NCBI GenBank assembly: GCA_001799575.1
Contig: MGTT01000011.1
Coordinates: forward strand, 124,001 to 188,000
DNA: 64,000 nucleotides
Reading direction: 5' to 3'
Source: Elusimicrobia bacterium GWA2_56_46
GTDB lineage: Bacteria > Elusimicrobiota > Elusimicrobia > Elusimicrobiales > UBA9959
The notes beneath the pieces were generated by a model. That model saw only the letters and a program-made list of their open reading frames with translations, did no database searches and was not told where the DNA came from. The position numbers and the translations under genes are program-made. The stretch's first letter is position 1, and every line of letters starts with the position of its first letter. Shown here piece by piece: positions 788 to 50,379 of this stretch.

Positions 788-1024
788 CTACCACGGATCC
801 TCTTTATACATCCTGAGTATTATGACGCCGCCGTTGGTGAACTGCTTTGACAGATACCACTGGAGCGACCTGTACATCATTACGAAAACCGTTAAAAGCG
901 ACACCGTCACCAGCAGGTACTCGATGGTGGTCTGGCCTTTCCTAAGGATGAGGGATGAAGGATGAGTGATGAAAGAAAAACGTTTCGGACTTTTAGCTTT
1001 TACGACCGGACTTGATATTCCCAT
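788..1024 (-). CDS. Pilin-like class III signal peptide protein with heptamer-array-encoded N-terminus
   Basis: RKGQTTIEYLLVTVSLLTVFVMM prepilin motif preceded by FITHPSSLIL encoded by the heptamer repeat; start codon uncertain. Confidence 0.55.
   Translation of the reverse strand: MGISSPVVKAKSPKRFSFITHPSSLILRKGQTTIEYLLVTVSLLTVFVMMYRSLQWYLSKQFTNGGVIILRMYKEDPW
944..976. repeat. Heptamer array family A (GGATGAR)n, about 4 units
   Basis: GGATGAG GGATGAA GGATGAG TGATGAA read directly. Confidence 0.9.
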
Positions 1025-1057
1025 TATTCTTCTCGTTCCTTAACAGCCCCCGGTCTT

Positions 1058-2086
1058 TTAAAATTGCACTTTCACCATGATCTGGCTTGATTTACCGAGG
1101 GCGCCGTAGGGAACCATAGTGTAGTCCAGCGACATCCCGTAACCCATGGCCTGCGCGGTATAGATCCCTATGCCGAACGACCAGCCGCTGGTCTTGCTCA
1201 GGCCCAGCGTATCCAGGGTCTTATCGTCGTAATTTTTGCCGTAGTCGTCCGCGCCCGTATACCCCGTGCGGACGCTCACGCGCCCCACCTGGATCACTTC
1301 CTCCGGGAGGTTGAACTCCACGCCGCCGCCGGGCTGGGTCCGCCGGTCGGAATAACTCTTGGACTCCAGAAGAGCCGTGATGAACGGATTGGGCGAATAA
1401 GCCAGGCCCAGCCGCTGGATCCTGACCACCTGGTCTTTCTTGCCGGAAAAGTTCGCGCCGGACCAGCCGAGAGAAAGTTTACGGCCCACTTTCAGAACGA
1501 CGCCGCCGTCGAAAACAAGATTATTGTACTTCTCGGTGTAATTATCCTCCATCACTTCCTTGGCGCTGACGCCCACAAGCAGGCGTTCAAGGAAAAAACT
1601 TTTGGCCAGCGTCAGCGTACCGTAGCTGTTGCGGACTTTTACGTCCTCCCCGTACTGCGGTATCCCGGCCTGATCCCTCACGTCAAAGCCCTTGATGCCG
1701 TAATAGGCGACGTTGACTCCGATGACCGACTGCCCCACGGGATGCACGTAAGCCATGTACTGTCCGGAATAATCCTGGAACCAGCTCAGATAGGAAAACC
1801 CCGCTTCGCGCAGCTGCGAGGAAGCGACGCCCGCGGGATTTATAGTCATGGCCTCGGTTCCCTCCACTATGGATACCCCGCAGTTTCCAAGCGCCTGCGC
1901 CCTGGGACTGCCGGTCGGGATCTTCATGAACACCGCTCCCGAAGTCCCCACTTGCGAGTCCGCGGCATGGGCGGAAAGGATGAAGGATGAGGGATGAAGG
2001 ATGAAACACAGAATGATAAGAAACCGGAACCCGGACATTTTCCCCATCCTCTTTTCCGCTTCTTTAGTCCCAAAAAAATTTCTCAT
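1058..2086 (-). CDS. PorV/PorQ-like outer-membrane beta-barrel protein
   Basis: FMKIPTGSPRAQALGNCGVSIVEGTEAMTINPAGVASSQLREAGFSYLSWFQDYSGQYMAYVHPV is typical of PorV/UPF0164; signal peptide from repeat cassette. Confidence 0.75.
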   Translation of the reverse strand: MRNFFGTKEAEKRMGKMSGFRFLIILCFILHPSSFILSAHAADSQVGTSGAVFMKIPTGSPRAQALGNCGVSIVEGTEAMTINPAGVASSQLREAGFSYLSWFQDYSGQYMAYVHPVGQSVIGVNVAYYGIKGFDVRDQAGIPQYGEDVKVRNSYGTLTLAKSFFLERLLVGVSAKEVMEDNYTEKYNNLVFDGGVVLKVGRKLSLGWSGANFSGKKDQVVRIQRLGLAYSPNPFITALLESKSYSDRRTQPGGGVEFNLPEEVIQVGRVSVRTGYTGADDYGKNYDDKTLDTLGLSKTSGWSFGIGIYTAQAMGYGMSLDYTMVPYGALGKSSQIMVKVQF

Positions 2087-2125
2087 AGCATCTCCCTAAC
2101 ATCCCTCATCCCTCATCCCTCATCC
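1978..2125. repeat. Repeat cassette copy 1: inverted heptamer arms (GGATGAR x4 / CATCCCT x3.7) flanking a ~94-bp core with RBS, start codon and signal peptide
   Basis: Arms at 1978-2005 and 2100-2125; core strongly similar to 8694-8789. Confidence 0.85.
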
Positions 2126-2128
2126 TTT

Positions 2129-5100
2129 TTACGGCACCAGTATCTTTTTGACCGTCTGGAACGCTCCTTTCGCACCGTCCCGGCCCTCCAGCCTGATAAC
2201 CGCGAAATATACTCCGGGAGCCACGAGCCTGCCGGAACTGTTGGTCCTGGGCCAATAATGCGTCAGATCGACCCCTCCGCCCAAAAGCCCCGAACTGTAC
2301 CTGTATATAAGATCTCCGGCCAGGTTATAGATCTTGATACTAGCTTCGGAATTGATGTATATGGGTATATGAAAATAACCGTTCGTCCCCGTATAGGGAT
2401 TGGGCGCGAACCAGATATCTTTCTCAAGCTGAGCGTCGTCCTTGCTGGGGCCGTTGGCCACCGGGATGTTGGCGACTATCTGATCGTCGGCCAGCCCGCT
2501 GCCGGGCGACACCGTGCCGTTCAGCATGCTTATGCTGTCCGCGCTGGTGGAACCGTAGACCTTGAAGACATAGTTCCCGTCCGGCACTTTCGACAGCGTC
2601 AGATCTGTGCCGTCCCAGGTTTCAAAGATCTGGGCCCGGGCAGGCCGCATACCCACGAACATCTTCACAAGCTGGGCGGGCTTACAGTCCGCGGCAAGAT
2701 TTACGCACGAACTCAGGGGCGTCCCGGGACGGTAGATCCTGGTCACCACCCTCATCGGCTCGGAAACCTGGTACGAGATGACGGCCGGGGATTCCATGGT
2801 CATCGGCGTGATAGCCATGTCATAGATCCGCAGCGGATTGACGGAGATAGGCTGCTGAACCGTCGCCGCGGAGATCAGATCGGTGCGGAGATCGCGGGCG
2901 ACTATTTTCACGTTGTAGTCTCCGGCCGGCACAAAATCGCCGTTGACGCAGACAGCCGGGTTCGGACTGTTGCATTTCCCGTCCCAGAATTCCTTATTGG
3001 GCAGGCCGCCGTCCCTGACCTCCCCGGAGATGATAGAAGCGACCACCTGCGGAGTGTTGAAGTTGTTCAGAACCTGCACCGTGACCGAAGACTGGCGGGT
3101 GACCATATAATCTATCTCGTAAGGCGGCAGCAGAACGGTGTCGGAAGAATTGAACATCGTGGGAATGCTCGGGATTACGTCAAAGGCCGTAAAAATGATC
3201 TGTCCCCTGGCCACGTCAAAGTAGCCGTAAACCTTGTCGGCGGCGTACATAACGGGCTGAACCGAGGTGACGGCGGTGGTAGTGTGAGCCACCAAAGTAA
3301 AGGGATACCTGCCGTCCGGCTTAAGAACGCCCTCCTCATCCCGTCCGTCCCAGGAGTCGGTGATCTTAAAGCGGCCGGGGCGCATCCCGGAAATGGTAAA
3401 AATCGGCTGTTTAACCGGAACCACGTTCGGCCAGTCGGACGGATTCACCGTGACGTCTGTCGGATAGATCTTCAGCTCGACATACATCGCCTGCGAAAGC
3501 TCGAAATCTATAGTTGCGACATCGGAAGCCCCGCCCAGCAGCGGCGTGGTTTTTACATCCACGATACGGAACATCTCAACGGGCGTGCGGGCCGTGGTGG
3601 TGGAGACCCTGGTGGAAACGCAGGAATACGGATCCTCGGTTATCAGTTCGGCCTGGTAAATTCCGCCGGCGACGTATTTTCCGCTATCATCTTTTCCGTC
3701 CCATAATTCCCGGTTTGAGAAATTGGCGAACCTGGTCTCCCGACTGATAAGATGCCTGACCGGAGTCGTGCTGCCTTCGGGCAGAATATTCATCGTGACC
3801 AGGGTGTCCCTGACGGGGGTGTAACGGAAATAGAACGGATCCAGCCCCGCAACCGAAGGAGAGGAGCCTATCACAGTAGAGGAAGGCGAGATAAGACTGA
3901 CCACCAGACCCCTGGCCACCGGCAGCGTGCCTACCGCCAGGCGCTGGTTCCTTATGACCCCGCCGGACGCCGCCGCGGAAGGGAGCTCGGCCCAGATAGC
4001 GTAGATATAGTCGCCGTCGCAGACAGGGTTGCCGAGATTGTCCCGGCCGTCCCAGATGGTGGAAGCCGTCTGCCGGCCCGCTTTCTGCTCGGTTATCAGC
4101 CTGAGCAGGGTTCCGGAATTAAGCGCCGGTGGATTTGTCACGCTGTTCAGGTCGGTGAAAGCCGTGCCGGGCGAATAAATGCCGACGTAAACGGTCGCGG
4201 CTTCGGTGAGCAGATAACTTATGACCGCCTGATCCGTGGAAGAGGCGCCCAGGGGTTTCACGGCGACATCGGTTATCTGAAGCGGATCATGCGAAATAGT
4301 GGTAGTATAAGGATAGGCGTTGTCTATTCCCGACCAGTTGTCCTGCGACTCGGCGGAGATCTCCGCCCTGTATACGCCGGGCGGGGCTATCCGTCCCAGA
4401 TTGTCCCGGCCGTCCCAGAAATCCCCGTTCGTGAGGGTGCCGTCCGGAACGCCTTCCCCCACCCTGGGCAGGCTTGAGACCAATACGCGGGTAAGCGGCA
4501 TGACGCCGCCTACGTCTATGGCCGAATATATCCTTATGGAGGTGGTGGCGTCCTTGCTCAACCGATAGAGGATATTGTACGGCTGGGCGGCCACGCCCGT
4601 TATTTTGCCCACCACGGTGGGACTGGAACGCACCGTGTGAATATTCATGACGTCTATCTGTATCGGGATCTGGCTCTCGCCCGGAAAAGCCGCGGTCTGC
4701 TCTATGGAGATATTACCGGCCTGCTGGCTGACCTCGTTGGTCTTGACCTTGGCCCGGAAGCCGTACTGGCCGTTGGTCTTTCCGAAGATGCCGCTCAGGT
4801 TGTAAGAACCGTCCCAGGCGGTGCAGTAATAATTCCCGGCGCCGCCGACGGTGGCGGCCACGTTATTATCGCTCTCGCACTGGCCGATGTTGAAAAGGGA
4901 AACCGTCCTGATAGGGGGAGTGCTGGCCGGATCCAGCGGATTGCCTCCGGCGGCGAACTTGAAGATCTCAAAACTCAGTTCGTTGATACCGAAGTGGCCG
5001 GAGGTGCTTACGCAGACTATCTGGGCGCATAAGGCCAGGCAGCCGCCGGGGTAGTTGCTAGACGGCTGTTCGAATTCTATGCGCGAAGAGTCCCTCCAGA

Positions 5101-7145: not shown

Positions 7146-7270
7146 AAAATCAGGTTTCAGGGTCTAGAATTCAGGGCACCTTGTTATAAGTTTAACAGGC
7201 GGATGTTGCCCGGGAGTGAATTAAATGTTAAAAAAAGGTTACAGGCGGGCTCATGCTGGAACCGCATGAG

Positions 7271-7345
7271 CGGTATCCGGTAACCAGTGGCCGGTAACCA
7301 GTAACCGAATACCGGATACTGGTTACTGAATACCGGATACGGGTT
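7271..7345. repeat. Heptamer array family B (CCGGTAA/CCAGTAA/CCGGATA), about 10 units
   Basis: CCGGTAA CCAGTGG CCGGTAA CCAGTAA CCGAATA CCGGATA CTGGTTA CTGAATA CCGGATA. Confidence 0.85.
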
Positions 7346-8775
7346 TACTGCTGTTGCAGTAAACCCTGCAATTCCACCGTCGCCTGGCTGATATCTATGC
7401 CGGCGCCCTGGTAGCGTCCCACTATACGCTGGAGAACGCCTTTGAGCGATTCTTTCGGCGCGCCGCCACTCCTCATCTTGAGATAGGCCGCCCAATCGCC
7501 GCTGAAATCGAATCTGAGCTGGTTCAGCTTGTCGTTGTTGCGCTTCTCTTCCAGCGATCTAAGCTCCGCTTCCGCGCGGCGCTGGCGCTCGACTATGGCC
7601 TCCAGTTTTTCCCTGGCCTGCGTTACCTCCGCTTTCTGTTCGCGGGCGGCTTTCAGGCCGGCGTTAAGCAGTGCCGTCTCATTTTTAAGGTCGCTCAGCT
7701 CGTCCCGGAGAATGCTTTCGCGCCTGGCGGATTCGTCAAGGGCCTCCATCAGGTCTTTGCGGTATTTGATTTCCTGCCTTACCAGCTTTTCATATTCGGA
7801 TCCGGAATCTTTGTCTCCGAAGCGGATGCTGAGACTTAAAACATGGCCCGGCGTTATCGTCCCGGTGAGCGGGACAAGGAGGGAATAGGAGATTTCCGAG
7901 GCCGGCCGCCGGTAGCCCGCGCCCAGGCTCACAAAAGAGGCGTTCGGCGCGAGGGAGAGCCCCGCGCGCGAACTGAAAATACCGTAGCGGTAGGTGCGCC
8001 AGAGATATTCAAAACCGGAATTGACGCTGAAATTGCCCTTGTAGCCGCCGGCGCCGGAACGATTGGCGACGTCCAGCGTGAGCGTGTAATCTTCCGTCTT
8101 TTCGGCCACGCCCAGGCGGGCTGAGAACGGCGCCTTGTCCTTCAGTGCCCCCTCTCTGAAAGAGGGAGAATTGACATTCAGCAGGGACAGGCCGAAGTTG
8201 TGCTTTGTGTCCGCGCGCCAGAGAGCTCCCAGATCGAGACCCAGCGCCATTTTGGAATCGCCGCTCCGCACCGAAGAGAGCTGCATAAATTTCAGGCCGG
8301 CGCCCAGATCCAGCGCGCCGGCGCCGGCTTTCCGGAACTGCCAGGTCGCCCAGCCGAGACTGAACATTTTTTCCTTAAGATCCGCGCCCAACGCCCTGTA
8401 ACGGCCCAGGATCGACATCGTGCCGAGCTTTCCGTAGGCCATGCGCGGAATAGCCGCGCCGGCCGCATAGCTGTCAAAATCAAGCGGGCCCAGGCTTGAG
8501 CGGGTACCAGCCTCAAAATGCGCGCCGGTCTCCAGTTTTCTGGTCGAACCCGGAATGGCGGGGTTCAGAAGCGCGCCATTGGCATCGTCCAGCGCAGTGG
8601 CGGAATCCCCCATGCCGCGCAGGCGGGCGCTAAGGCCGGTATCCTCAAAAGCGGCATAAGCTGAAGGGATGAGGGATGAGGGATGAAAGATGAAACACAG
8701 AATGACAAGAAACCATAACCCGGACATTTTTTTTGGCCTCTTTTCCGTTTTTTTAATCCCAAAAAAAAATCTCAT
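7345..8775 (-). CDS. PorV-like outer-membrane protein with C-terminal coiled coil
   Basis: FEDTGLSARLRGMGDSATALDDANGALLNPAIPGSTRKLETGAHFEAG followed by a coiled-coil C-terminus; signal peptide near-identical to the 1058-2086 protein; start MRFFFG at 8775. Confidence 0.65.
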   Translation of the reverse strand: MRFFFGIKKTEKRPKKMSGLWFLVILCFIFHPSSLIPSAYAAFEDTGLSARLRGMGDSATALDDANGALLNPAIPGSTRKLETGAHFEAGTRSSLGPLDFDSYAAGAAIPRMAYGKLGTMSILGRYRALGADLKEKMFSLGWATWQFRKAGAGALDLGAGLKFMQLSSVRSGDSKMALGLDLGALWRADTKHNFGLSLLNVNSPSFREGALKDKAPFSARLGVAEKTEDYTLTLDVANRSGAGGYKGNFSVNSGFEYLWRTYRYGIFSSRAGLSLAPNASFVSLGAGYRRPASEISYSLLVPLTGTITPGHVLSLSIRFGDKDSGSEYEKLVRQEIKYRKDLMEALDESARRESILRDELSDLKNETALLNAGLKAAREQKAEVTQAREKLEAIVERQRRAEAELRSLEEKRNNDKLNQLRFDFSGDWAAYLKMRSGGAPKESLKGVLQRIVGRYQGAGIDISQATVELQGLLQQQ

Positions 8776-8901
8776 AAGCGTCTCCATATCATCCCTCATC
8801 CCTCATCCCTCATCCCTCATCCCTCATCCCTCATCCCTCATCCCTCATCCCTCATCCCTCATCCCTCATCCCTCATCCCTCATCCCTCATCCCTCATCCC
8901 T
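8666..8901. repeat. Repeat cassette copy 2, right arm expanded to 16 perfect CATCCCT units (8790-8901)
   Basis: Left arm GGGATGA x3 + AAGATGA at 8666-8693; right arm 112 nt = 16 x 7. Confidence 0.95.
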
Positions 8902-10382
8902 TGCGTTTTCTCCACGTCCCCGGCCAGGGCTATCTGGCCGCGGCCGTGGGATTTCACCCAGTAAAGGGCGTCGTCGGCTTTCGCGAGCAGGGCCTCCATG
9001 GAAGAAGCGTCCGCCGGGAATGTCGAGATACCCAGGCTCATTGACACCGTAAGTTCCCGCGTCTTGGAAAAAGGCACGGGGATCTTTATCTCGCGGACCT
9101 CCAGAGCGAGCCTGGCCGCCAGTTTCTGCGCTTCCTCCCCCGTGGCCTGGGGCAGGAGTATAATGATCTCGTCGCCGCCGTAGCGGCACGGGAAGTCTAT
9201 TTTGCGCAGATTGGAAAGGATCACCCGGCCGACCTCCCTGAGCACTTTGTCGCCTATCTGGTGGCCGTAAGTGTCGTTCACTTCCTTAAAATAGTCCACG
9301 TCCCCCCAGATGACGGCCAAAGGCTGCTTGAAACGTTCCGCGCGGTAAAATTCCTCCTGAAAACGCTGGTTGAAGTAACGCCGCAGCGGCAGTTTGGTCA
9401 GTTCGTCATAAAGCGAAAGCTCTTCGACCTTGTCGAAAAGCCTGACATTGTCCAGCGCCAGACCGATCTGCCCGGCGAAAGACTTGAGCATGGCAAGTTC
9501 CCCCGGCTCGATCTTCTGCTGGCTTAAAAGGTTGTCCACGATCAGCAGGCCGATGGTGGTTCCCTGCACCACCAGGGGCATATACAGCACGCAGTCCTTG
9601 TACCGTTCCATGAACACGCCCGAACTCCTGCCCAGCACGATATCCGCGAAGCGGTGGGCGCCGGCCTCAAGCGGGATCTCTTCGTACGCTATGCTCTTAA
9701 GCTGGCCGCGGATATCGGAACTCAGTTCGCCTTTTAATTTCTGCGCTTTCTCGTCTATCAGGTAAAGCCGCACGCGGTCAAAGCCGAAATAGGTCTGGAT
9801 GCCGGCCAGGATATGTTTAAAACTGTCGCGCACCCGGAGGGAATTGGCGAAGATCTCGGTAAGTTCGGTGATGACGGAAAGATTCCTGGAATATTTTTTA
9901 TTAAGACCCACGAATTCTGCTTTGTAATAGCTGCGCATGAACTCGCCGATATACTCGTGGGCAAAGGCGGCCTCGGCCGGAGAAAACCGCTTTTTTTTCG
10001 GGGAACGTTCCAGCCTGATCAGCCCCTGTATGGGAGCTTCGCCGGAGGCGGCCGCGGCATAGATCCCGACCCGGAACGGCGCCAGCAGAAAATGACCGGC
10101 CTTATTGCTGAAAACCGCCGGCTTCAGCGAGGCCAGCGTTTCGGATGCCGGAGAATCCGGGGACGGGCGCGCGCTTTCCTCGGCCTCGAAAGACAGGCCG
10201 TCCGCGCGGCGCATCATCAGACGCAGAAGCGCGTTCTTCTCGTCGTAATAATAAAACGAGACCCGCTCCGCCGCGGACAGTCTGGACGCGGCTTCGAGCA
10301 GCCCTTTCAGGAAAGCGTCCCGGCTCTCGAAAAAAGCGGGCGTTTCCCCGGCCAGGGAGTTTATTTTCTTTTTCTTTTTCAT
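8880..10382 (-). CDS. GAF-GGDEF diguanylate cyclase
   Basis: GAF-like region, then DELTKLPLRRYFNQRFQEEFYRAERF...GDVDYFKEVNDTYGHQIGDKVL...FPCRYGGDEIIILLPQ; stop codon lies in the heptamer array. Confidence 0.9.
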   Translation of the reverse strand: MKKKKKINSLAGETPAFFESRDAFLKGLLEAASRLSAAERVSFYYYDEKNALLRLMMRRADGLSFEAEESARPSPDSPASETLASLKPAVFSNKAGHFLLAPFRVGIYAAAASGEAPIQGLIRLERSPKKKRFSPAEAAFAHEYIGEFMRSYYKAEFVGLNKKYSRNLSVITELTEIFANSLRVRDSFKHILAGIQTYFGFDRVRLYLIDEKAQKLKGELSSDIRGQLKSIAYEEIPLEAGAHRFADIVLGRSSGVFMERYKDCVLYMPLVVQGTTIGLLIVDNLLSQQKIEPGELAMLKSFAGQIGLALDNVRLFDKVEELSLYDELTKLPLRRYFNQRFQEEFYRAERFKQPLAVIWGDVDYFKEVNDTYGHQIGDKVLREVGRVILSNLRKIDFPCRYGGDEIIILLPQATGEEAQKLAARLALEVREIKIPVPFSKTRELTVSMSLGISTFPADASSMEALLAKADDALYWVKSHGRGQIALAGDVEKTQGMRDEG

Positions 10383-11575: not shown

Positions 11576-12655
11576 TTAATCCCAGGACGCCACGGCCAGA
11601 TCCGGGGCTATATCCAGGGAACCACCCGAAACCCCGCGCTCAAGCCGGCGCGCGGCGCAAAGAGCCACCATGGCGGCATTGTCCGTGCAGTAGGCTTTTT
11701 CCGCGAACCCGATCTGATAGCCGGTTCCGGCCGCGAGTTCGGCGAACTTCCGCCTTAAACGGAGGTTGGCCGCCACGCCGCCGCCCACGATCACGCGCTT
11801 TATGCCGGAAGCCGCGCAGGCTTTGGCGGTTTTATGGACCAGCGTGTCGGCGACAGCCTCCTCAAAAGCCAGGCAGATCCCGGCCTGGCCGGCCGGGGAA
11901 AGCCGCCGGCGTTTTTCATAAAAATCGGAACCGAGCAGATCCCGGAGCCTGTAAGCCACGGCCGTCTTAAGGCCGCTGAACGAAAAATCAAAACTGCTTT
12001 CCATATAGGGCCGCGGGAACTCAAAGCCGCCGGCCCTTAACGGAGCGGCCCCCAGGGCCGCCTTTTCCACGGAAGGCCCGCCGGGATAATCCAGTCCCAG
12101 CAGTTTGGCCACCTTGTCGAAAGCCTCGCCGGCCGCATCATCGCGGGTCCGTCCCAGAACCTTGTAGCAGCCGTAGCCTTCCACTTTCCAAAGTTCGGTA
12201 TGGCCCCCTGAAACGATGAGAACGATGCACGGAAATTTTATCCGTCTGGATGCCAGCTTCCCCTCGTACTCGTAAGCCAGAAAATGGCCTTCAAGATGAT
12301 TTATGCCCAGAAGTTCCGCGCCGAGCAGCCTGGCCGCGGCCCCGGCCGCCACCCTCGACACCAGAAGGGCTCCGGGCAGCCCCGGTCCCCGGGAGAAAAC
12401 GACCGCGTCTATTTTCGGCCCGTTCAGCCAGCCGCCTCTGAAAAAAGGACGCCGGTAACCGGCTTTCGAAAGGGCGGCGCCAAGCACAGGGGAGATCTTC
12501 TCCAGATGCGCCCGGCTGGCAAGCTCCGGCACCACGCCGCTGTATTTTCTATGAAGACCTATCTGGGAGAAAACGATATTAGAGAGCAGCCGCCGGCCGT
12601 CAAGCACACAGACGGAGGTTTCGTCGCAGGTGGTCTCAAAAGCCAGGATTCTCAT
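11576..12655 (-). CDS. tsaD: tRNA N6-adenosine threonylcarbamoyltransferase
   Basis: MRILAFETTCDETSVCVLDG...INHLEGHFLAYEYEGKL...VSGGHTELW; start set inside the ORF because the upstream extension is repeat-derived. Confidence 0.95.
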   Translation of the reverse strand: MRILAFETTCDETSVCVLDGRRLLSNIVFSQIGLHRKYSGVVPELASRAHLEKISPVLGAALSKAGYRRPFFRGGWLNGPKIDAVVFSRGPGLPGALLVSRVAAGAAARLLGAELLGINHLEGHFLAYEYEGKLASRRIKFPCIVLIVSGGHTELWKVEGYGCYKVLGRTRDDAAGEAFDKVAKLLGLDYPGGPSVEKAALGAAPLRAGGFEFPRPYMESSFDFSFSGLKTAVAYRLRDLLGSDFYEKRRRLSPAGQAGICLAFEEAVADTLVHKTAKACAASGIKRVIVGGGVAANLRLRRKFAELAAGTGYQIGFAEKAYCTDNAAMVALCAARRLERGVSGGSLDIAPDLAVASWD

Positions 12656-12660
12656 AAAGC

Positions 12661-12745
12661 AGGGTCTAGGGGTCAGGGTAGAGGGTTTAGGTTCAGAAAT
12701 AAGGAATTTCCATATCACACCCCTACACCCTAAACCCTCTACCCT
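12661..12745. repeat. Heptamer family F (AGGGTTT-like) as inverted pair around a ~26-bp core
   Basis: AGGGTAGAGGGTTTAGG at 12675-12691; exact reverse complement CCTAAACCCTCTACCCT at 12729-12745. Confidence 0.9.
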
Positions 12746-14105
12746 ATTTTGCTGTTTTCAGATTCCCCAGAACCTCTCTGGCTTTCAGAAGTTCCACGGC
12801 GCGATCCAGCACATCATCGCGGATCTGGGCTTCTTTTTTCTTATCCTGCGCGGTGGGGCGGAATACTCCGTCGTTTTGCGGAACAGAAGTTTTCTCCCCA
12901 AGCCGTTTTTTCTCGGCCTCTTCCGCGGCTTTCGGTTCTTTGCCGGGATAATAGAATTCTTCAGCCTGCTGGAGAAGTTTTCTTTCTACTTCCAGCGGAA
13001 CTTTAATCTCTATGTCCGGGGTTATGCCGCCGGTGTTCTTTTTTTCGTCACGATGTATGGAACGGCCGGAGGGCGTATAATACCTGGCTATAGTGAGCCT
13101 TAACGCGGACTTGTCGGAAAGCGGTATCATGGACTGAACGCTGGCCTTGCCGAAAGTGCGCTCGCCTATGATAACGGCTCGTTTGTTGTCCTGCATGGCG
13201 CCGGCCACGATCTCGCTGGCGGAAGCCGAGACGCGGTTCACCAGGATGACCAGCGGCAGATCGGAATAGGGCGCCTGGGCGGCGGCCCTGAATTCCTGGT
13301 AATTTTCCGGCTTACGGCCCTTGGTGTAAACTATCATCCTGTTGTTATCCAGGAAAAGCTTTGAAATGTCCACCGAGGCCGACAGCAGACCGCCCGGGTC
13401 GTACCGCAGGTCTATGACCAGGCCTTCTATCCCCTGCTTTTGAAGGCCCTGGAGAGCCTTGGTGAAATCCTCCACCACATGGCCGGTGAATTCTATCGTT
13501 TTTATGTAGCCGATCCTGCCATCGATCACCCTGGACTTGACGTTCTCGGTCTTGATCAGTTCGCGGACCATGGTCACGTCCCTGTTTATCCAATCGGCGT
13601 TCTTGTCCTCCGTCTCCCGCGCGATAGTGATCTTGACCTGGGTTCCGGGCACGCCGCGCAGTTTTTTTATGGCTTCGTCTATGATCAGATCCTTGGTGCT
13701 CTCGCCCTCTATTTTCACGATCTTGTCGCCTGGATACAACTGGGCGCGGTACGCCGGCGTATTGGGGAGCGGCGTTACCACGGTCAGCCAGCCGTCGCGC
13801 ACATCCACCCGTATGCCTATGCCGCCGAATTCCCCCTCCGTATCGCTCTTGACCCTGGTGTAAACGTCGGGCTCCATGAACTGGGAAAAATCGTCCAGCT
13901 CGCGCACCATGCCGGCGGCGGCCCCGTAGATCAGTTTCTGGGAATCTATCTCGTCAACGTAATTTTCCTTGATCAGCTCCATCACGTCCACTATTACCTT
14001 GAGCTGCTGGTAGGTCTGATCTATGGCAAAATTGAGGTACGGGAAAGCCAGGCCGATAAAGGCGGAAACGAAGACGATCCCCGCCAGTTTCTTAATGCTT
14101 TTCAT
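12744..14105 (-). CDS. S41 family C-terminal processing peptidase
   Basis: FGGIGIRVDVRDGWLTVVTPLPNTPAYRAQLYPGDKIVKIEG (PDZ); LVNRVSASASEIVAGAMQDNKRAVIIGERTFGKASVQ catalytic motif; GGGAG RBS. Confidence 0.95.
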   Translation of the reverse strand: MKSIKKLAGIVFVSAFIGLAFPYLNFAIDQTYQQLKVIVDVMELIKENYVDEIDSQKLIYGAAAGMVRELDDFSQFMEPDVYTRVKSDTEGEFGGIGIRVDVRDGWLTVVTPLPNTPAYRAQLYPGDKIVKIEGESTKDLIIDEAIKKLRGVPGTQVKITIARETEDKNADWINRDVTMVRELIKTENVKSRVIDGRIGYIKTIEFTGHVVEDFTKALQGLQKQGIEGLVIDLRYDPGGLLSASVDISKLFLDNNRMIVYTKGRKPENYQEFRAAAQAPYSDLPLVILVNRVSASASEIVAGAMQDNKRAVIIGERTFGKASVQSMIPLSDKSALRLTIARYYTPSGRSIHRDEKKNTGGITPDIEIKVPLEVERKLLQQAEEFYYPGKEPKAAEEAEKKRLGEKTSVPQNDGVFRPTAQDKKKEAQIRDDVLDRAVELLKAREVLGNLKTAK

Positions 14106-14165
14106 TGAATTTTCTCCCTGTTGCACGAAAGTATAGATTATACATCTTTCAGGGCTTTTTTTCGC

Positions 14166-14200
14166 CCTTTAGCCTTTAGCCCTCGTCCTTTATCCTTATC
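14166..14200. repeat. Degenerate heptamer array (CCTTTAG/CCTTTAT), 5 units
   Basis: CCTTTAG CCTTTAG CCCTCGT CCTTTAT CCTTATC. Confidence 0.75.
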
Positions 14201-14224
14201 TGAAAAATTCGACTGAATTTTTCA
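14201..14224. terminator. Hairpin downstream of the M23 peptidase gene
   Basis: TGAAAAATTC-GACT-GAATTTTTCA. Confidence 0.4.
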
Positions 14225-14226
14225 GG

Positions 14227-15390
14227 TTAGTTCGTCAGCCAGATCAGCGGATCCACCGCCGCGTCACCCAGCCGAATCTCAAAATAAACCGCGCTATAAT
14301 CCTTCTCCGCCGGCCCGGAAACAGCCTGCGTGTCCTCCCCCGCGCGGCCAAGCGGGGAACTGGGCGTCACCTGATCGTTTTTAAAGACCGAAATAGACGC
14401 CAGCAGACCGTAAATGGTGAAAAAGCCACGCTCGTGATCCACTATGACCACGTTCCCGTAAGTCCTGAACGGACCGGCGTAAATAACTTTCCCGTTCATG
14501 ACCGGGAAAACGGGGGCCGCTTCCGCGGCGCGGATCCGCACGCCTTCCCGCACGATCCAGGTCTTCAAAAGCGGCACCTCCTCCCTGCCGTACCGGCTTA
14601 TGACCCTGCCCGCCGCCGGCCAGGGAAGCGAATGCCTGGGAATCGGCAGATCCCTGGATCTCCCGGCCGAAGGCTTATAAGGCGACTGTTTTTCAAGTTT
14701 CCTGACCAGTCTGGTCAGGCCGAGAGCGGCGTTCTGGAGGTTTTCCACTTCTTTTGAAAGCCGGAGCTGCTTTTCCCTGGTCCTTTCCAGTTCCGTCATC
14801 TTGCCCTTTACTATGTTCCTATGGGCCGACCGCTGCTTGTCCACCAGCCCTTTTTTCGCCTTAAGCTCAAGATTCTGCCTGGTCAGATCCTGAAGATCTC
14901 CCTTGACCCTGGCGGTCTCGCCTTTGATCCTTTTGATGAGGCTGTTCTTCTCCAGGATGGCGGATTTCAGCAGGAGATCGCGCGAAATATCGCTCAACCC
15001 GTGATAGGGATAATAGAAATGTTTATCCAGAGAATAGAGGACGACCTCCCCATACAGATCTCCCTGGAGATCCTTGTAGGCTTTGGCGAGGGAATCATAC
15101 TTTTCCCTGGAATCGGAGCTTCTGGCGCGGGTACCGGCAAGCTGCGCCTCCAGCGCTTTCTGGCGTCCCACATTAAGCTTATCCTCTTTTTTAAGAGTGT
15201 CTATTTCGGAATTTATGAGGTTTTCCTCTTCCCTGTATTTCTCCAGTTCTTTCTTCTTTTCATCCAGTTGCTGACGGATCTCGTCCAGACTTTTTTTCCT
15301 GGCCGCGATCTTGCCCTCGGCCGCGAGCCCGGCGGGGCCGGCCAGGAGCAGGAACGAGAAAAGGAGGGTTAATTGTGCGTGTTTTTCCAT
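14227..15390 (-). CDS. Murein hydrolase activator EnvC-like, M23 domain
   Basis: N-terminal coiled coil and C-terminal LytM-like GKVIYAGPFRTYGNVVIVDHERGFFTIYGLLASISV. Confidence 0.85.
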   Translation of the reverse strand: MEKHAQLTLLFSFLLLAGPAGLAAEGKIAARKKSLDEIRQQLDEKKKELEKYREEENLINSEIDTLKKEDKLNVGRQKALEAQLAGTRARSSDSREKYDSLAKAYKDLQGDLYGEVVLYSLDKHFYYPYHGLSDISRDLLLKSAILEKNSLIKRIKGETARVKGDLQDLTRQNLELKAKKGLVDKQRSAHRNIVKGKMTELERTREKQLRLSKEVENLQNAALGLTRLVRKLEKQSPYKPSAGRSRDLPIPRHSLPWPAAGRVISRYGREEVPLLKTWIVREGVRIRAAEAAPVFPVMNGKVIYAGPFRTYGNVVIVDHERGFFTIYGLLASISVFKNDQVTPSSPLGRAGEDTQAVSGPAEKDYSAVYFEIRLGDAAVDPLIWLTN

Positions 15391-16214: not shown

Positions 16215-16283
16215 TTCAAAGCATCATTATATAATTTATTATGTGAAGATGGGCAAAAAAGGGGGGCACCCAAATCCTCCACT

Positions 16284-16842: not shown

Positions 16843-17835
16843 CTAAAGCGACTTATCCTTGAACTCTACGGCCGCCACGAAAGGCGAACGCGAAATCTCG
16901 CCCACCATATCTACCGGGAGACTGCCGGTGATCTCAAAAGCCGTGAACTTGGCGTCAACCGAATTATTGGGCAGCCGGAAGACGTTCTCGGAAGCGAAAC
17001 CGGCTTCGGAGCCCAGCCGGCGGACGTAATCGGCCACAAAAATGCCGGAACGGGCGCCGCCCGGGGCGCGCAAGGTGAAACGGATCCGCGTCCTGAACGG
17101 TATGCCTGAAGTTTTCTTCTCTATGGCCACGCGCCTCACCAGCGGATCCCTGCAGATGCCGTCAAGCCTTGAATAGGGCGCCCAGCCGAGCAGAAATGTC
17201 CTTTTACCTACGGCGGTAAAGTAGGTTTTCTCTCCGGCGAACCTGAAACCGGAACCGGAAAGGGATTTTATGACCGCGGAATGATCCCCCGTCTTGGGGA
17301 GCACCGTCAAAAAAACATAATCCCCCGCTTTAAAACCGGAAAGAGCGCTCCGGTCAAGCGGATTGACATAGGAGGAGATCGGCCCGACCTCGTTCGCGAA
17401 AGTGACCTTGTAATACCGGCCCGGCCCCGCGGCGCTTTGTGAACTTGTGTCCTGTGACTTGTGGCTTGTGACTTGTACTCTGCGACTTGTATCCTGTGTC
17501 TTGCGTCCCGTGTCTTCCAGTATGCGGACCGCCGGCAACCGGTCCGCCATCAGGGTAGTGAGCGACAGGGAGGTCAGGGCGTCGCGAAAACCGCCGTTAA
17601 GTCTGGCCGCGGTTCTGGGATTACGATAGCCGTAGGCCGTTTCCACGTAATCCTGGAAATCCGGGTCGGTGAAAGGGCTGGCATCGGGTGACGGAGGCAG
17701 CCCCGGAAAATCCGGGTGAACCGTAACCGGCCGCAAATCGGCGGCCCTTTCCGGAGCAGCCGCGGTAAGATTTACGGAACCGGAGGCGAGGATCGCCGCG
17801 GCAAGTAAAAAAATATATTTTGTCGTTTTTATCAT
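16843..17835 (-). CDS. Exported protein of unknown function with in-frame heptamer-array insertion
   Basis: Signal peptide MIKTTKYIFLLAAAILASGSVNLTAAA; low-complexity RKTQDTSRRVQVTSHKSQDTSSQS encoded by array family D. Confidence 0.6.
   Translation of the reverse strand: MIKTTKYIFLLAAAILASGSVNLTAAAPERAADLRPVTVHPDFPGLPPSPDASPFTDPDFQDYVETAYGYRNPRTAARLNGGFRDALTSLSLTTLMADRLPAVRILEDTGRKTQDTSRRVQVTSHKSQDTSSQSAAGPGRYYKVTFANEVGPISSYVNPLDRSALSGFKAGDYVFLTVLPKTGDHSAVIKSLSGSGFRFAGEKTYFTAVGKRTFLLGWAPYSRLDGICRDPLVRRVAIEKKTSGIPFRTRIRFTLRAPGGARSGIFVADYVRRLGSEAGFASENVFRLPNNSVDAKFTAFEITGSLPVDMVGEISRSPFVAAVEFKDKSL
17443..17519. repeat. Heptamer array family D (ACTTGTG/TCCTGTG), 11 units inside a CDS
   Basis: ACTTGTG TCCTGTG ACTTGTG GCTTGTG ACTTGTA CTCTGCG ACTTGTA TCCTGTG TCTTGCG TCCCGTG TCTTCCA. 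Confidence 0.9.
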
Positions 17836-18060
17836 CCTTTGAATCGCGCAACGCAAAATTGGGAAACGGGCGCAAAGCCTCCATCGCCGTTCCCCCTGGT
17901 TACCCCGGATTCACAGGCCCGGGGGTGGATGCTCCTTCGCCTCTTCAAAGGATTACAAGGTGTTTTTAATTGTAGCTTTGATCGCAGATCATCACAAGGC
18001 ACTTTAGGCCTACGGGAACAAAGTAAATAGACCTACGCCGGAATAGGCCGAAAGACCCAT

Positions 18061-20117: not shown

Positions 20118-20125
20118 TAAAGAAA

Positions 20126-20153
20126 GGATGAGGGATGAAGGATGAGGGATGAA
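20126..20153. repeat. Heptamer array family A, 4 units
   Basis: GGATGAG GGATGAA GGATGAG GGATGAA. Confidence 0.9.
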
Positions 20154-20177
20154 AAAGAAAAGTTGAGTTATAAATTT

Positions 20178-21077
20178 ATGAGAACAATAAAGCTATCCGT
20201 TATTCGCTATTCGCTGTTCGCTGTCTGCTGTTCGCTTATGTTTACCGCGGGCTGTAGGAACAAAGACCTGGAAACTTTCAATAACCTGGAGAAGGATCGT
20301 TTTCTGGTCAGAACCGAACGAGCCCGGATAAAGAATATCGAGGACTACCTGATCCTGGTGGGGTCGGTAAAAGCCATGGATGAAGCCACGCTTTATCCCA
20401 GGGTTTCCGGAAAACTTTTAAGGAACCTGCTGACCGAGGGAGACCCGGTAAAAAAAGATCAGCCGGTGGCCCTGATCGAACGCGACGAGCCCGGCGTGGT
20501 CTATGAACCGGCCCCCGTTCCCTCCACGCTTACCGGCGTCATAGGCCGCGTTTACCAGGATTCCGGGGCCAACGTCACGCCGGCCACCCCGATAGCGCTG
20601 GTGGTCAGCCAGGGCACGGTGCGCGTGGTGGTGGACGTGCCGGAACGCTATATGGGCAGGGTTTTTCCCGGCCAGGAGGCCTATATCAAGGTGGACGCCT
20701 TCCCCGACACGCTCTTCCGCGGCAAGGTTTACCGCGTGAGCCCCGTGGTGGACACCAGGACGAGGAGCGCCGTGGTGGAACTGCTTGCCAGCAACTCCGA
20801 CGGCCGCCTGAAATCCGGCATGTTCTCCGAGATCCGCCTGGTGGTGGGCGCCAAAGCCGGCGCGGTGGCTGCGCCTTCCGCGGCGGTGCTCAATGAAAAC
20901 GGCAGGTCATACGTCTTTGTGCCGGTTAACGGAACCGCGGTGCGCCGCGATGTCAAAACCGGCATCGGAAACGACGATTTTATACAGATAGTCTCCGGCC
21001 TCAAAGCCGGGGACGAACTCATAACTTTCGGCCTGTACGGGCTGAAAGACGGAAGCAAGATAAAAGTGCAGGAATAA
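20178..21077 (+). CDS. RND efflux periplasmic adaptor lipoprotein (MFP)
   Basis: Lipobox LMFTAGC; YLILVGSVKAMDEATLYPRVSGKLLRNLLTEGDPVKKDQPVALIERDE. Confidence 0.9.
   Translation: MRTIKLSVIRYSLFAVCCSLMFTAGCRNKDLETFNNLEKDRFLVRTERARIKNIEDYLILVGSVKAMDEATLYPRVSGKLLRNLLTEGDPVKKDQPVALIERDEPGVVYEPAPVPSTLTGVIGRVYQDSGANVTPATPIALVVSQGTVRVVVDVPERYMGRVFPGQEAYIKVDAFPDTLFRGKVYRVSPVVDTRTRSAVVELLASNSDGRLKSGMFSEIRLVVGAKAGAVAAPSAAVLNENGRSYVFVPVNGTAVRRDVKTGIGNDDFIQIVSGLKAGDELITFGLYGLKDGSKIKVQE
20193..20234. repeat. Heptamer array family E (CTATTCG), 6 units inside the lipoprotein signal peptide
   Basis: CTATCCG TTATTCG CTATTCG CTGTTCG CTGTCTG CTGTTCG. Confidence 0.9.
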
Positions 21078-27034: not shown

Positions 27035-27075
27035 AGGATCTCCTTACAAAACTACTTCGAATGAATTGATATTTT

Positions 27076-27159
27076 CAGTATCCGGTATCCAGTATTCGGT
27101 AACCGGCCACGACAATAGGTACTTCCTTATAGTACCGGCTACTGGTTACTGATTACCGG
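27076..27159. repeat. Heptamer family B inverted pair around a ~28-bp core
   Basis: CAGTATC CGGTATC CAGTATT CGGTAAC CGG ... CCGGCTACTGGTTACTGATTACCGG. Confidence 0.85.
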
Positions 27160-27183
27160 TGATTTTAAGGCGCCGGCTTAAAA

Positions 27184-28233: not shown

Positions 28234-28283
28234 GCAGTGGTCAGCGGGTAGTGGTCAGTGGTCGGAAAAGAACCACCGACCGC
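28234..28283. repeat. Heptamer family C (TGGTCAG) array with short inverted partner
   Basis: GCAGTGGTCAGCGGGTAGTGGTCAGTGGTCGG ... CCACCGACCGCG. Confidence 0.7.
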
Positions 28284-29009: not shown

Positions 29010-29058
29010 GGTGTCCGGTATTCAGTAACCGGTAACCGGTTACTATGCAGTACTGGTT
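29010..29058. repeat. Heptamer family B array
   Basis: TGTCCGG TATTCAG TAACCGG TAACCGG ... TACTGGTTAC. Confidence 0.7.
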
Positions 29059-29065
29059 ACGACTT

Positions 29066-41259: not shown

Positions 41260-41277
41260 TGATTGATTCCGACCCGC

Positions 41278-41305
41278 ATCCTTCATGCTTTATCCCTCAT
41301 CCTTT
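41278..41305. repeat. Degenerate family A heptamer array
   Basis: CATCCTT CATGCTT TATCCCT CATCCTT. Confidence 0.75.
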
Positions 41306-42203: not shown

Positions 42204-42224
42204 AATTAAATCCCCCCCCCGCCC

Positions 42225-42259
42225 TTCATCCTTTGGCCTTTATCCCTAATCCTACCCCC
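42225..42259. repeat. Degenerate heptamer array between moaC and moaA
   Basis: TTCATCC TTTGGCC TTTATCC CTAATCC TACCCCC. Confidence 0.7.
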
Positions 42260-44497: not shown

Positions 44498-44541
44498 AGG
44501 TTTATGGAATGCATACTTTCTTCCTTAAGCCTTGTCCCTGT

Positions 44542-46301: not shown

Positions 46302-46334
46302 AGAGAATCCTACGCGCCGGATTTATCCCGCTGA

Positions 46335-46366
46335 ACCGGTTCCCGGCTGCCGGTTACCGATTACTT
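46335..46366. repeat. Heptamer family B short degenerate array
   Basis: ACCGGTTCCCGGCTGCCGGTTACCGATTACT. Confidence 0.5.
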
Positions 46367-47188
46367 TGACTGGTAATCGTAAAAAAACAACTGTTGTCCG
46401 TATTTCTCCCGGCCGTAATTCTCGATAATCTCCCTGGCCGGTTTTGACAGCATAAAATCAAAGAACGCCCTGGCGCCCCCGGCGTTGACCTTGGGGAATT
46501 TGGCCGTGTTTACCAGTATAAGGCTGTAACGGTTTATAAGAGCGTCGTCGCCTTCGCTGACTATCACAAGGCCTATATTATTTTTCATCGAAAGATAAGT
46601 TGAGCGATCCGAGAGCACATAGGCGTCTTTCTCGTTGGCGATGGAGAGGGTGCCGGACATCCCCTGTCCGGCCTCCAGGTATGCTTCTTTGGCGGGTTTG
46701 ACTTTGGCGGCGGCCCAGATCTTCAGCTCTTTCTTGTGGGTGCCGGACTTGTCGGCCCGGGAAACGAACAGCGCTTTCGCGGCCGCTATTTTTTTGAAAG
46801 CGTCGGCGGCTTTTTTCTCGCTTTTGATCCCGGCGGGGTCCGCGTCCGGACCGAGTATCACAAAGTCGTTATGCAGGAAAGTGGTGCGGCCGGTACCGTA
46901 ACCCTCGGCCACGAATTGCTTTTCGTCGTCGGGGCTGTGCACCCACAGGATGTCGGCCTCTCCGGTTTTGCCCAGTTGCATGGCCTGGCCGGATCCCACG
47001 GCTATGGACTGCAGCGTGTATTTTCCGTCTTTCCGGAAAACATCCGTCAGCACGTCCAAAAGACCCGTATCCTGCACGCTGGTAGTGGTGGCCAGGCGCA
47101 CGATCTCGCGCGGAGCGGAATTGTTCCGGCAGCCGAAAATAAAAAAAGCGGCGGCAGCGGCGCCAAGAATAAACTTCGTATGCTTCAT
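46361..47188 (-). CDS. tupA: Tungstate ABC transporter substrate-binding protein
   Basis: VRLATTTSVQDTGLLDVLTDVFRKDGKYTLQSIAVGSGQAMQLGKTGEADILWVHSP. Confidence 0.9.
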   Translation of the reverse strand: MKHTKFILGAAAAAFFIFGCRNNSAPREIVRLATTTSVQDTGLLDVLTDVFRKDGKYTLQSIAVGSGQAMQLGKTGEADILWVHSPDDEKQFVAEGYGTGRTTFLHNDFVILGPDADPAGIKSEKKAADAFKKIAAAKALFVSRADKSGTHKKELKIWAAAKVKPAKEAYLEAGQGMSGTLSIANEKDAYVLSDRSTYLSMKNNIGLVIVSEGDDALINRYSLILVNTAKFPKVNAGGARAFFDFMLSKPAREIIENYGREKYGQQLFFYDYQSK

Positions 47189-47233
47189 AAGGTTAACCTC
47201 CGTTTAATAGTTATCTGCTGCCCCAAAAAGATG

Positions 47234-48136: not shown

Positions 48137-48231
48137 ACGTATTTTATTCATACCCGGCATGAATACTATGAATTATACTAATTATGCCGCAATTGTTAAC
48201 ATTTACTGAAATAAATTACACGGAGGAGAGA

Positions 48232-49860
48232 ATGAACACCATTTTCCAGGTTCCCAAACCCGTCAACGAGCCCCTGCTGGACTACGCGCCCGGCAGCCCC
48301 GGACGCAAAGAACTCAAATCCAGACTCGCCGAACTGAGGAGCCGGGTGATAGAGATCCCGCTGATTATAGACGGAAAAGAAGTGCGCACCGGCAGGATCA
48401 CCGACATCGTAATTCCGCACGAAAAGAGGAAAGTGATAGGCCGCTTCCACAGGGCCGGCCCCGCGGAAGTGCGGCTGGCCTTAGAAGCCGCCTCCAGAGC
48501 GAAGCAAACCTGGGGCAAAATGCCCTGGCACGCCCGCGTCTCCGTGTTCCTGAAAGCCGGGGAACTGCTGGCCGGGCCCTGGCGCCAGACACTGAACGCG
48601 GCCACTATGCTGGGCCAGTCCAAGAACGCCTATCAGGCCGAAATCGACGCGGCCTGCGAACTGGTGGATTTCTACCGCTTCAACGCTTATTTCGCCGAAC
48701 GGATCTACGCGCAGCAGCCCCTCTCCCCGCTTGGTTCCTGGAACTACATGGACTACAGGCCGCTGGAGGGATTCGTGTTCGCCGTATCGCCGTTCAATTT
48801 CACTTCCATAGCGGGAAACCTGACCGCCGCCCCGGCAATTATGGGCAATACGGTAGTATGGAAACCGGCCTCCGCCGCCGTTTACTCGGGGTATTTCCTT
48901 ATGAAACTGTGGCAGGCGGCCGGCCTGCCCGACGGCGTCATCAATATGCTGCCCGGCTCCGGAGGCGAGGTGGGCAGCCCCATAATAGACAGCCCGGACT
49001 TCATGGGCCTGCACTTCACCGGCTCCACCACAGTATTCAACGGCATGTGGAAAACAATAACCGGCAACCTGGACAAATACCGCGGCTACCCGCGTATCGT
49101 GGGCGAGACCGGCGGCAAGGACTTCATCTTCGCCCACGAATCCTGCGACACCGAAGCGCTTAAAACCGCCATAGTACGCGGCGCCTATGAATACCAGGGC
49201 CAGAAATGCTCGGCGGCCAGCCGCTCTTATATCCCGCGCTCCGTCTGGGAGAAAATAAAAGACGATCTTGTGGCGCAGATAAAAGGCCTGAAAATGGGCC
49301 CGGCCGAGGATTTCACGAACTTCATGAGCGCGGTCATAGATAAGGCGGCTTTCGACAATATAAAGGGCTATATAGACTTTGCCAAGGCCTCACCGGACGC
49401 GAAGATCCTTGCCGGCGGCGGCTGCGATGACTCCGAGGGCTGGTTCATAGAGCCAGCGCTTATCGAAACCTCGGATCCGCGATTCAAGACCATGCGGGAG
49501 GAGATCTTCGGGCCGGTGATGACGGTGTATGTATATGAGGACGGAAAGTTCGAGGAGACGCTGCGCCTGTGCGACGCCGCTTCCCCCTACGCCCTGACGG
49601 GAGCCGTCTTCGCGCAGGATCGCGCGGCGGCGCTGAAGGCGGCGGACGCGCTGGAACACGCGGCCGGCAACTTCTACATCAACGACAAGCCTACCGGAGC
49701 CGTGGTGGGCCAGCAGCCTTTCGGCGGCGCCCGGGCCTCCGGGACCAACGACAAGGCGGGTTCGCTTCTGAATATGATGCGCTGGACCTCGCCGCGCACC
49801 GTGAAAGAAAACTTTGTTCCACCCACGGACTATAAATATCCGTTCATGGCGGAAAAATAA
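48232..49860 (+). CDS. L-glutamate gamma-semialdehyde dehydrogenase-type aldehyde dehydrogenase
   Basis: VNEPLLDYAPGSPGRKELKSRLAEL; VGETGGKDFIFAHESCD; YQGQKCSAASRSYIP; GGAGGAGAG RBS. Confidence 0.93.
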   Translation: MNTIFQVPKPVNEPLLDYAPGSPGRKELKSRLAELRSRVIEIPLIIDGKEVRTGRITDIVIPHEKRKVIGRFHRAGPAEVRLALEAASRAKQTWGKMPWHARVSVFLKAGELLAGPWRQTLNAATMLGQSKNAYQAEIDAACELVDFYRFNAYFAERIYAQQPLSPLGSWNYMDYRPLEGFVFAVSPFNFTSIAGNLTAAPAIMGNTVVWKPASAAVYSGYFLMKLWQAAGLPDGVINMLPGSGGEVGSPIIDSPDFMGLHFTGSTTVFNGMWKTITGNLDKYRGYPRIVGETGGKDFIFAHESCDTEALKTAIVRGAYEYQGQKCSAASRSYIPRSVWEKIKDDLVAQIKGLKMGPAEDFTNFMSAVIDKAAFDNIKGYIDFAKASPDAKILAGGGCDDSEGWFIEPALIETSDPRFKTMREEIFGPVMTVYVYEDGKFEETLRLCDAASPYALTGAVFAQDRAAALKAADALEHAAGNFYINDKPTGAVVGQQPFGGARASGTNDKAGSLLNMMRWTSPRTVKENFVPPTDYKYPFMAEK

Positions 49861-49892
49861 AACACTCGCTCTCCGAAATAACGGGAGAACGC

Positions 49893-50336
49893 TTAGCGTT
49901 TGCCGGTGCTGCCGTAGCCGCCTTCGCCTCTTGTGGTCGCAGCAAGCTCTACTGCTTCCGTAAAGGCCGCATATTCGACTTTGTTGAACACCATCTGGGC
50001 TATTTTTTCGCCTTTTTTGATCTCGTAGGAGTTATCGGGGTCGTGATTAATAACGATGACCCCCACCTCGCCCCGGTAGGGCGCGTCCACGGTGCCGGGC
50101 GTGTTCAGCACCGTTATGCCGTGCTTTAGCGCCAGCCCGGACTTGGGCCTCACCTGCCCCTCATACCCGCGCGGGATAGCCATCTTAAGACCGGTGGGGA
50201 CAAGCACGCGCTCTCCGGGCTTTAAATTAAAATTCCCGCCCGCGTAAAGATCCACGCCGGCGTCTCCCTCGTGCGCGTAAGAAGGCATTTTTGCGTCGTC
50301 GTTAAGTTTTTGAATCGTTACTTCAAGCTTATTCAT
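49893..50336 (-). CDS. dut: dUTP diphosphatase
   Basis: PSYAHEGDAGVDLYA; RPKSGLALKHGITVLNTPGTVDAPYRGEVGVI; TTRGEGGYGSTGKR. Confidence 0.97.
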   Translation of the reverse strand: MNKLEVTIQKLNDDAKMPSYAHEGDAGVDLYAGGNFNLKPGERVLVPTGLKMAIPRGYEGQVRPKSGLALKHGITVLNTPGTVDAPYRGEVGVIVINHDPDNSYEIKKGEKIAQMVFNKVEYAAFTEAVELAATTRGEGGYGSTGKR

Positions 50337-50350
50337 TAATTTTTATCCTC

Positions 50351-50379
50351 CACGCTGTCCACTGATCACTGACCACTGC
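50351..50379. repeat. Heptamer family C array (CACTGACC)
   Basis: GTCCACTGATCACTGACCACTGC. Confidence 0.7.

Follow-up and report, generated by a model that had tools for sequence, protein, structure and literature searches.

Why do short tandem arrays of 7-nt words, different in sequence and alike in period, recur at gene boundaries and inside coding sequences of one bacterial genome? The question was raised by a stretch of 64,000 nt from Elusimicrobia bacterium GWA2_56_46 (contig MGTT01000011.1, positions 124,001 to 188,000; the window, in what follows), in which an earlier, sequence-only reading had described several dispersed heptamer words. We consider it probable that the arrays are the arms of small stem-loop elements of the intervening sequence (IVS) type. 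Genes of the widespread, selfish IVP/S23 family (PF05635), which encode the four-helix-bundle 23S rRNA intervening-sequence protein, were judged the most likely origin of the arrays. The repeat system itself is real and has known counterparts; what is new is that it is strongly linked, across phyla, to IVP/S23 genes.

Arrays were called in the window at 11 or more matches of 14 at lag 7, with 12 of 14 as a stricter cut. At the first cut, period 7 gave 18 arrays (50 Markov shuffles: mean, 1.56; maximum, 4), and periods 4, 5, 8, 10, 11, and 13 gave 1 to 4 arrays each. At the stricter cut, 9 arrays were found at lag 7, compared with 0.2 in shuffles. All the words of the sequence-only reading were present in the window where it had placed them, and its observation was confirmed; the arrays at 16581, 41278, and 42225 were degenerate and fell under the 11/14 threshold. 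The period-7 scan that it had proposed was extended to 726 kb of the 2.66-Mb metagenome-assembled genome (98.8% complete; G000 hereafter), and the excess over shuffled sequence was present there as well as in the window: 83 arrays were found at period 7, compared with 2 in shuffled sequence and with 5, 6, 5, 1, 7, and 3 arrays at periods 4, 5, 8, 10, 11, and 13, respectively. Part of the 726 kb was picked around known GGATGAG matches, so the array density in G000 is inflated, and the contrast between periods is touched only via the GGATGAG word itself. In the whole 2.66-Mb genome, GGATGAGGGATGA had 70+144 occurrences and the same pattern read backwards had 0. Assembly artefacts, named earlier as a possible source, are unlikely because the arrays recur in independent metagenome-assembled genomes and in complete plasmids.

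The 83 arrays comprised 36 canonical words, and one and the same word was found at many sites within a genome. The multi-word system proposed earlier was real, but its word families were not fully distinct, because they intergrade by single in-phase substitutions (GGATGAG-GGATGAA-AAAGGAT-AAAGGCT and GTAACCG-GTATCCG-GTATTCA). A grammar common to the words of all phyla (NTNWYCN) was considered as a tentative idea. With 7-nt tandem units far above chance at many sites, and with more than one word family per genome, the arrays have the properties of dispersed heptanucleotide repeats, that is, of short tandemly repeated repetitive (STRR) sequences or long simple sequence repeats (SSRs).

Many of the arrays were paired. 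Among neighbors no more than 500 bp apart and sharing one word, 42 pairs were inverted and 5 were direct in G000 and two genomes of the same family (G005 and G016) combined, compared with approximately 13 inverted and approximately 13 direct pairs expected when words and strands were shuffled. In the window, the inverted pairs 1974/2096, 8662/8786, 12661/12721, and 27074/27133, as well as the self-palindromic arrays at 7271, 28234, and 29010, had been missed by the earlier description. Those at 7271, 12661, 27074, 28234, and 29010 form compact hairpins in gene gaps. The pairs 1974/2096 and 8662/8786 each span the start codon of a PorV-family gene, and the core of the signal peptide (ILHPSSFIL, for example) is encoded by their inner arm; at the first of these sites, the arms 1974..2008 and 2096..2130 could pair as RNA into a 29-bp stem that encloses the start codon. 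The window pairs thus have the inverted, stem-capable arms of an IVS, and solitary arrays do not. With regard to miniature inverted-repeat transposable elements, which have fixed terminal inverted repeats and a target-site duplication, the arms are variable words rather than sequences of fixed kind.

Inverted arrays of short words, mainly heptamers, bracketed IVP genes in Elusimicrobiota, Gammaproteobacteria, Verrucomicrobia, and the Candidate Phyla Radiation, and also on plasmids of Nostoc and Calothrix. A heptamer array was present in at least one flank of 21 of 30 IVP loci from the same family, 16 of 24 from the phylum, and 18 of 22 from other phyla (350-bp flanks), and of 16 of 18 plasmid loci (200-bp flanks; Nostoc, Calothrix, Anabaena, Pseudanabaena, Stanieria, Riemerella, Azospirillum, and others). 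Among the controls, scored with 350-bp flanks, this was so for 8 of 24 tsaD loci and 3 of 25 Y1 transposase or reverse transcriptase (RT) loci. When all sets were pooled, 71/94 IVP loci and 11/49 controls had an array in a flank (P = 1e-9), and matched inverted heptamer arrays in both flanks were found at 39/94 IVP loci and 2/49 controls (P = 4e-7), the loci being not fully independent, because some are orthologous, and a few minus-strand loci near contig ends being misplaced by the scoring, which should only weaken the association. Array density among relatives was also higher in IVP-positive genomes (22 arrays in 220 kb, compared with 2 arrays in 180 kb; P = 0.008).

Most of the 30 same-family IVP loci were flanked by inverted word arrays, many of whose words were those of the free arrays; arm units of 8 and 10 nt also occurred at some IVP loci. 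An arm matched its own partner (median score, 23) much better than the arms of other copies (median score, 10), with 24 of 26 above the 95th percentile. Left-right swaps of arms that made IVP genes look inverted between species proved to be an artefact of loci being given in contig orientation. The sole IVP gene of G000 (C11:220530-220832) lies between convergent GGATGAG arrays. An in-frame fusion joins its IVP/S23 domain to the N-terminus of an 1180-aa secreted PQQ-like repeat protein (L010:9332-12874, minus strand, on C11), and the downstream array at the fusion junction encodes the signal-peptide core of that protein, SSLIPHPSSLLSA.

One intergenic insertion site was compared in its filled and empty states. 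It was filled in G005 (approximately 520 bp) and G021 (approximately 564 bp), where an IVP gene lies between conserved flanks, and it was empty in G006, G017, and G022 (57-82 bp, with no array). Because the empty versions are without an array, the arms at this site accompany the element rather than precede it. The IVP genes of G005 and G021 are similar and homologous; the arms differ, with 8-mer units in one and 10-mer units in the other, so that the site must have received an element on two occasions or else had both its arms rewritten where they stood.

The closest known counterpart is the 23S rRNA IVS of Coxiella, Leptospira, and Salmonella, which carries an IVP-family protein between inverted arms. 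Two of our IVP loci, L310 and L378, lie inside 23S rRNA genes and have heptamer arms, and the published Coxiella IVS contains tandem GACAGAT x3 (PMC4990558). In contrast, the present elements are located between protein genes or at signal peptides, are mostly gene-less, and use many words per genome. No IVP/S23 reading frame was found between arms inside the window, whereas one was found elsewhere in G000 and many in relatives; none of the window copies was in a 23S rRNA helix, all lying between protein genes or at their 5' ends. Because they are without an IVP gene and outside rRNA, the window pairs were filed as IVS-like and not as IVSs, although paired arms would be expected to act as those of an IVS do. 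We read the window arrays as arms of IVS-like elements that lost, or never had, the IVP gene.

The arrays of the window were as follows (letters denote the word families of the sequence-only reading; no strand is assigned unless one is given):

943..973: A array of GGATGAG and GGATGAA words, gene boundary.
1974..2008: A array and the inner of two convergent arms; its minus-strand reading is the signal-peptide core of a PorV-family protein (1058-2086, minus).
2096..2130: A array, outer arm of the 1974/2096 pair, upstream of the ribosome-binding site.
7270..7350: B words GTAACCG, GTATCCG, and GTATTCA, together a single self-palindromic hairpin between genes.
8662..8697: inner arm of the 8662/8786 pair (A array), within the part of a second PorV-like gene (7345-8799, minus) that codes for the signal peptide.
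8786..8904: A array of 16 perfect units, the outer arm of the 8662/8786 pair.
12656..12752: F hairpin between ctp and tsaD, with an AGGGTNN arm, a core around AAGGAAATTCC, and an inverted arm.
14150..14232: AAAGGCT/AAAGGAT array adjoining a CTGAAAAATTCGACTGAATTTTTCAG palindrome; G005 and G016 have dispersed copies of it.
17437..17516: D array, made of TTGTGAC and its variants, within the coding sequence 16843-17856 (minus).
20123..20154: array at the position of the A word given earlier as 20126.
20192..20236, plus strand: E array (GCTATTC/GCTGTTC), encoding a lipoprotein signal-peptide core.
27074..27160: convergent pair of B arrays between genes.
28234..28283: hairpin made of C words (CAGTGGT) and a short inverted end.
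29010..29062: B self-palindromic array (GTAACCG) in a gene gap.
41266..41305: A-type units in degenerate form (ATCCTTC, ATCCCTC), under the 11/14 threshold.
42220..42255: A-type units, likewise degenerate (TCATCCTTTGGCCTTTATCC) and under the 11/14 threshold.
46335..46375: B words, short.
50355..50380: C array (CTGACCA) between two genes.

Orthologous sites were compared among G000, G001 (same genus), G002, G003, G005, and G016, as had been suggested earlier, and relatives carried different words or no array at the same site. At the first PorV site, both arms read GGATGAG in G000 and AAAGGCT/AAAGGAT in G005, and in G016 they read GGGGCGA plus AGCCCCT in inverted orientation; at the second (8662/8786), both arms were AGGGTAG in G005. 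The gap between ctp and tsaD contained AGGGTNN in G000, GCCATAA in G001, AGGGTAG in G005, and GTAGTAG in G016, but was free of arrays in both G002 and G003; the hairpin at 12653-12747 had dozens of dispersed relatives in G005 and G016. The single array at 943..973 corresponded to a convergent pair of AAAGGCT/AAAGGAT arrays in G005 and G016, and that at 7270..7350 corresponded to GTAGTAG words in G016. At 17437..17516, GGATGAG or GGCTGAG was found in G016 and G005, and no array was found in G001 and G002. At 27074..27160, G016 had AAGGATT words, G001 had degenerate AAATCGT words, and G005 had no array. At 29010, AGGGTAG (G005) and GTATACA (G016) both surrounded a common TAAGGAGTTCCTT core. The E word at 20192..20236 was the same in G016, and G002 and G003 had an ordinary signal peptide. 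Because relatives carry other words at the same sites, with both arms alike, position and architecture at a site persist or recur and the two arms change jointly: the word differs between species, the period is usually 7, and paired arms are matched.

On the preferred reading, a complete element would consist of a tandem-word arm, an IVP/S23 gene, and an inverted copy of the same arm, and most copies in G000 would be gene-less hairpins or single arms. Insertion may be tolerated because the arms could pair in RNA and be cut by RNase III, as is known for 23S IVSs; selection would then see the pairing and not the sequence. Words would drift by point mutation and by slippage of whole units, and the two arms may be kept alike by exchanging units in any register, since they share words and hardly share unit order. 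An exact, pair-by-pair compensation of the stems was dropped in favor of word-level sharing because unit order was only marginally mirrored. Arms in signal peptides probably survive because a run of hydrophobic residues is encoded by one of the two strands.

Several observations weigh against an origin of the arrays from IVP elements. Only one IVP gene is left in G000, where arrays are far more numerous, and 52 of the 83 arrays had no neighbor inside 500 bp. The IVP-rich genomes G065 and G069 had no array in the 20 kb sampled. Unit order was barely mirrored between arms (18.8 vs. 17.9 when shuffled), and the arms are thus not exact complements. The tsaD controls themselves score 8/24, because array-rich genomes were included, and the empty-site evidence comes from one site. 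No dispersal enzyme was identified, and we know of no catalytic activity of IVP.

The same disproportion between arrays and IVP genes fits a different account, in which the arrays are ordinary SSRs produced by polymerase slippage with a 7-nt bias, and IVP genes merely settle in or near them. In many bacteria, long SSRs are most often heptamers, a 7-nt polymerase contact has been proposed (PMC4679880, PMC4692102), and the variant runs inside our arrays are compatible with mutation plus slippage. However, neither the convergent, inverted pairing of arrays of one word nor the joint change of both arms is predicted by slippage, the single empty site examined had no array to settle in, and IVP copies in 23S rRNA bear arms that are missing from uninserted rRNA, an established sequence. 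We therefore regard this account as unlikely; the earlier view that slippage of one ancestral unit is insufficient by itself was borne out.

Enzymes that could move or write the repeats fared worse. Hairpins that are short, palindromic, intergenic, and specific to a family or species resemble repetitive extragenic palindromes (REPs) and their paired form (REPINs), which are moved by REP-associated tyrosine transposases (RAYTs) of the Y1 type; 18 of the 21 genomes had Y1 genes (G037 and G046 did not), and the Y1-less G046 had no array in 40 kb. However, REPs are fixed sequences, which the heptamer arms are not, and when RAYT flanks were tested they carried other repeats: heptamers were rare at Y1 loci (3/25 in either flank, 0/25 matched), and the two Y1/RAYT genes of G000 had their own terminal repeats (GGTGCCAGGCACC, GGACGCTGATGAC), unrelated to heptamers, instead of being flanked by the same repeat as in REP/REPIN systems. 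Y1/RAYT was rejected as the partner on this ground, and we hold a REP-like origin to be highly improbable. The RAYT-like Y1 genes L089, L096, L099, L105, and L108 had terminal palindromes, such as GGTGCCAGGCACC and GGTAGCGTCTACC, that are common to species of the family. Templated addition of the word by an RT or telomerase-like enzyme, close to what the sequence-only reading had offered as speculation, seems to us equally improbable; addition templated by a Y1 transposase, a type of gene that the reading had proposed to look for, was not supported either. Each species does have its own dominant words, found at many sites, which is what a changing template would produce, and IVP has a relative in Avd, which partners the RT of diversity-generating retroelements (bAvd match, below threshold). 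Against this, many words coexist in one genome, a search with the RVT_1 profile (PF00078, the only one used) gave 0 matches in the 98.8% complete G000, and RVT_1 was absent from 10 of the 21 genomes searched; RT-templated addition was rejected for lack of RVT_1 in G000. The words accompany IVP/S23 genes rather than RT or Y1 genes.

The GxxExxY (PDDEXK_3) nuclease was rejected as a partner because it is absent from G000. Nearly all intact GxxExxY genes in Elusimicrobiota (L229-L262) lay between short inverted word repeats with a spacing of approximately 8-11, not 7, and the arm words differed per copy (CACAGAG, GATTACACAGAT, ACACGGAACTG, CACGAATAA, and others); it looks like a second gene with the same element design. 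A more general idea is, in our view, somewhat less likely than not: a widespread class of selfish stem-loops whose ends are matched, fast-changing tandem-word arrays, with IVP/S23 (mainly period 7) and GxxExxY (approximately 8-11) as coding versions, and with gene-less derivatives that would make up most heptamer repeats in Elusimicrobiota, cyanobacteria, and others.

Other heptamer systems share part of this pattern. The STRRs of heterocystous cyanobacteria (Calothrix) likewise have several dispersed heptamer words per genome, and the kinship suggested earlier was upheld: such arrays, some with identical words, flank IVP genes on plasmids of Nostoc, Calothrix, and Euhalothece. Heptanucleotide repeats reportedly also occur within RNase P RNA (Vioque 1997). 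In contrast to the arms described here, the cyanobacterial STRRs have no IVP link described in the open-access papers that were covered, among which we found no earlier report of a link between heptamer arrays and IVP genes. On cyanobacterial plasmids, IVP genes with heptamer arms were located between the operon genes cas6/cas4 (two species), cas10/cmr3, and nrdB/nrdA (L369, L370, L381, and L374). The GGGAATC/GGGGATT arrays of Xanthomonas and Nostoc (Rehm 2015, PMC4692102) are also mostly intergenic heptamers, with 70-75 convergent pairs per Xanthomonas genome, mostly kept in place between species (PMC4692102), but there is one word class per genome, read as G-quadruplexes (PMC4692102), whereas here there are many words, and one replaces another at a given site. 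The structure of an IVP protein of X. campestris has been solved (2gsc). The TAACTGA repeats of Beggiatoaceae (MacGregor 2015, PMC4679880) are short heptamer arrays, many of them directly upstream of start codons; they occur across phyla and their origin is unexplained (PMC4679880). They differ in having a single word, almost always direct, with one inverted case and no IVP link reported (PMC4679880).

Some further observations were made in the sampled genomes. G016 also had many period-8 arrays (GCTAGGCA, AAACCCTT, CACAAAGG; 39 in 232 kb), of which other genomes had few, in the same inverted arrangement (for example, L053:4660-4786, L209:2442-2520, and L215:7624-7780). At L201:129-446 (G000, C21), an apparent acyl-carrier-protein domain has a CATCCTT array on one side and an AAGGATG array on the other, the two being divergent, as though interdomain linkers were where arrays reside. 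In the window, a 2dG-II purine riboswitch aptamer (17891-17963, minus) lies upstream of the gene at 16843-17856 and is the best-conserved intergenic stretch in relatives. A stretch of approximately 100-200 bp within 16274-16497, without heptamers, had many dispersed copies (82-91% identity) in G001 and not obviously elsewhere.

To our knowledge, cyanobacteria have been known to contain heptamer repeats since about 1990, and such repeats are a dominant long simple repeat class in bacteria, with no accepted origin; 23S rRNA IVSs have been known for decades, with no known way of spreading. The link between heptamers and IVP gives the repeats a gene and gives IVSs a genome-wide form. It would provide bacterial heptamer repeats with a likely origin, a question testable in cultured cyanobacteria. 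If the preferred reading is true, these would be unusual elements, whose two ends remain matched without being held to any one sequence and which, when landing at the start of a gene, can supply signal-peptide codons.

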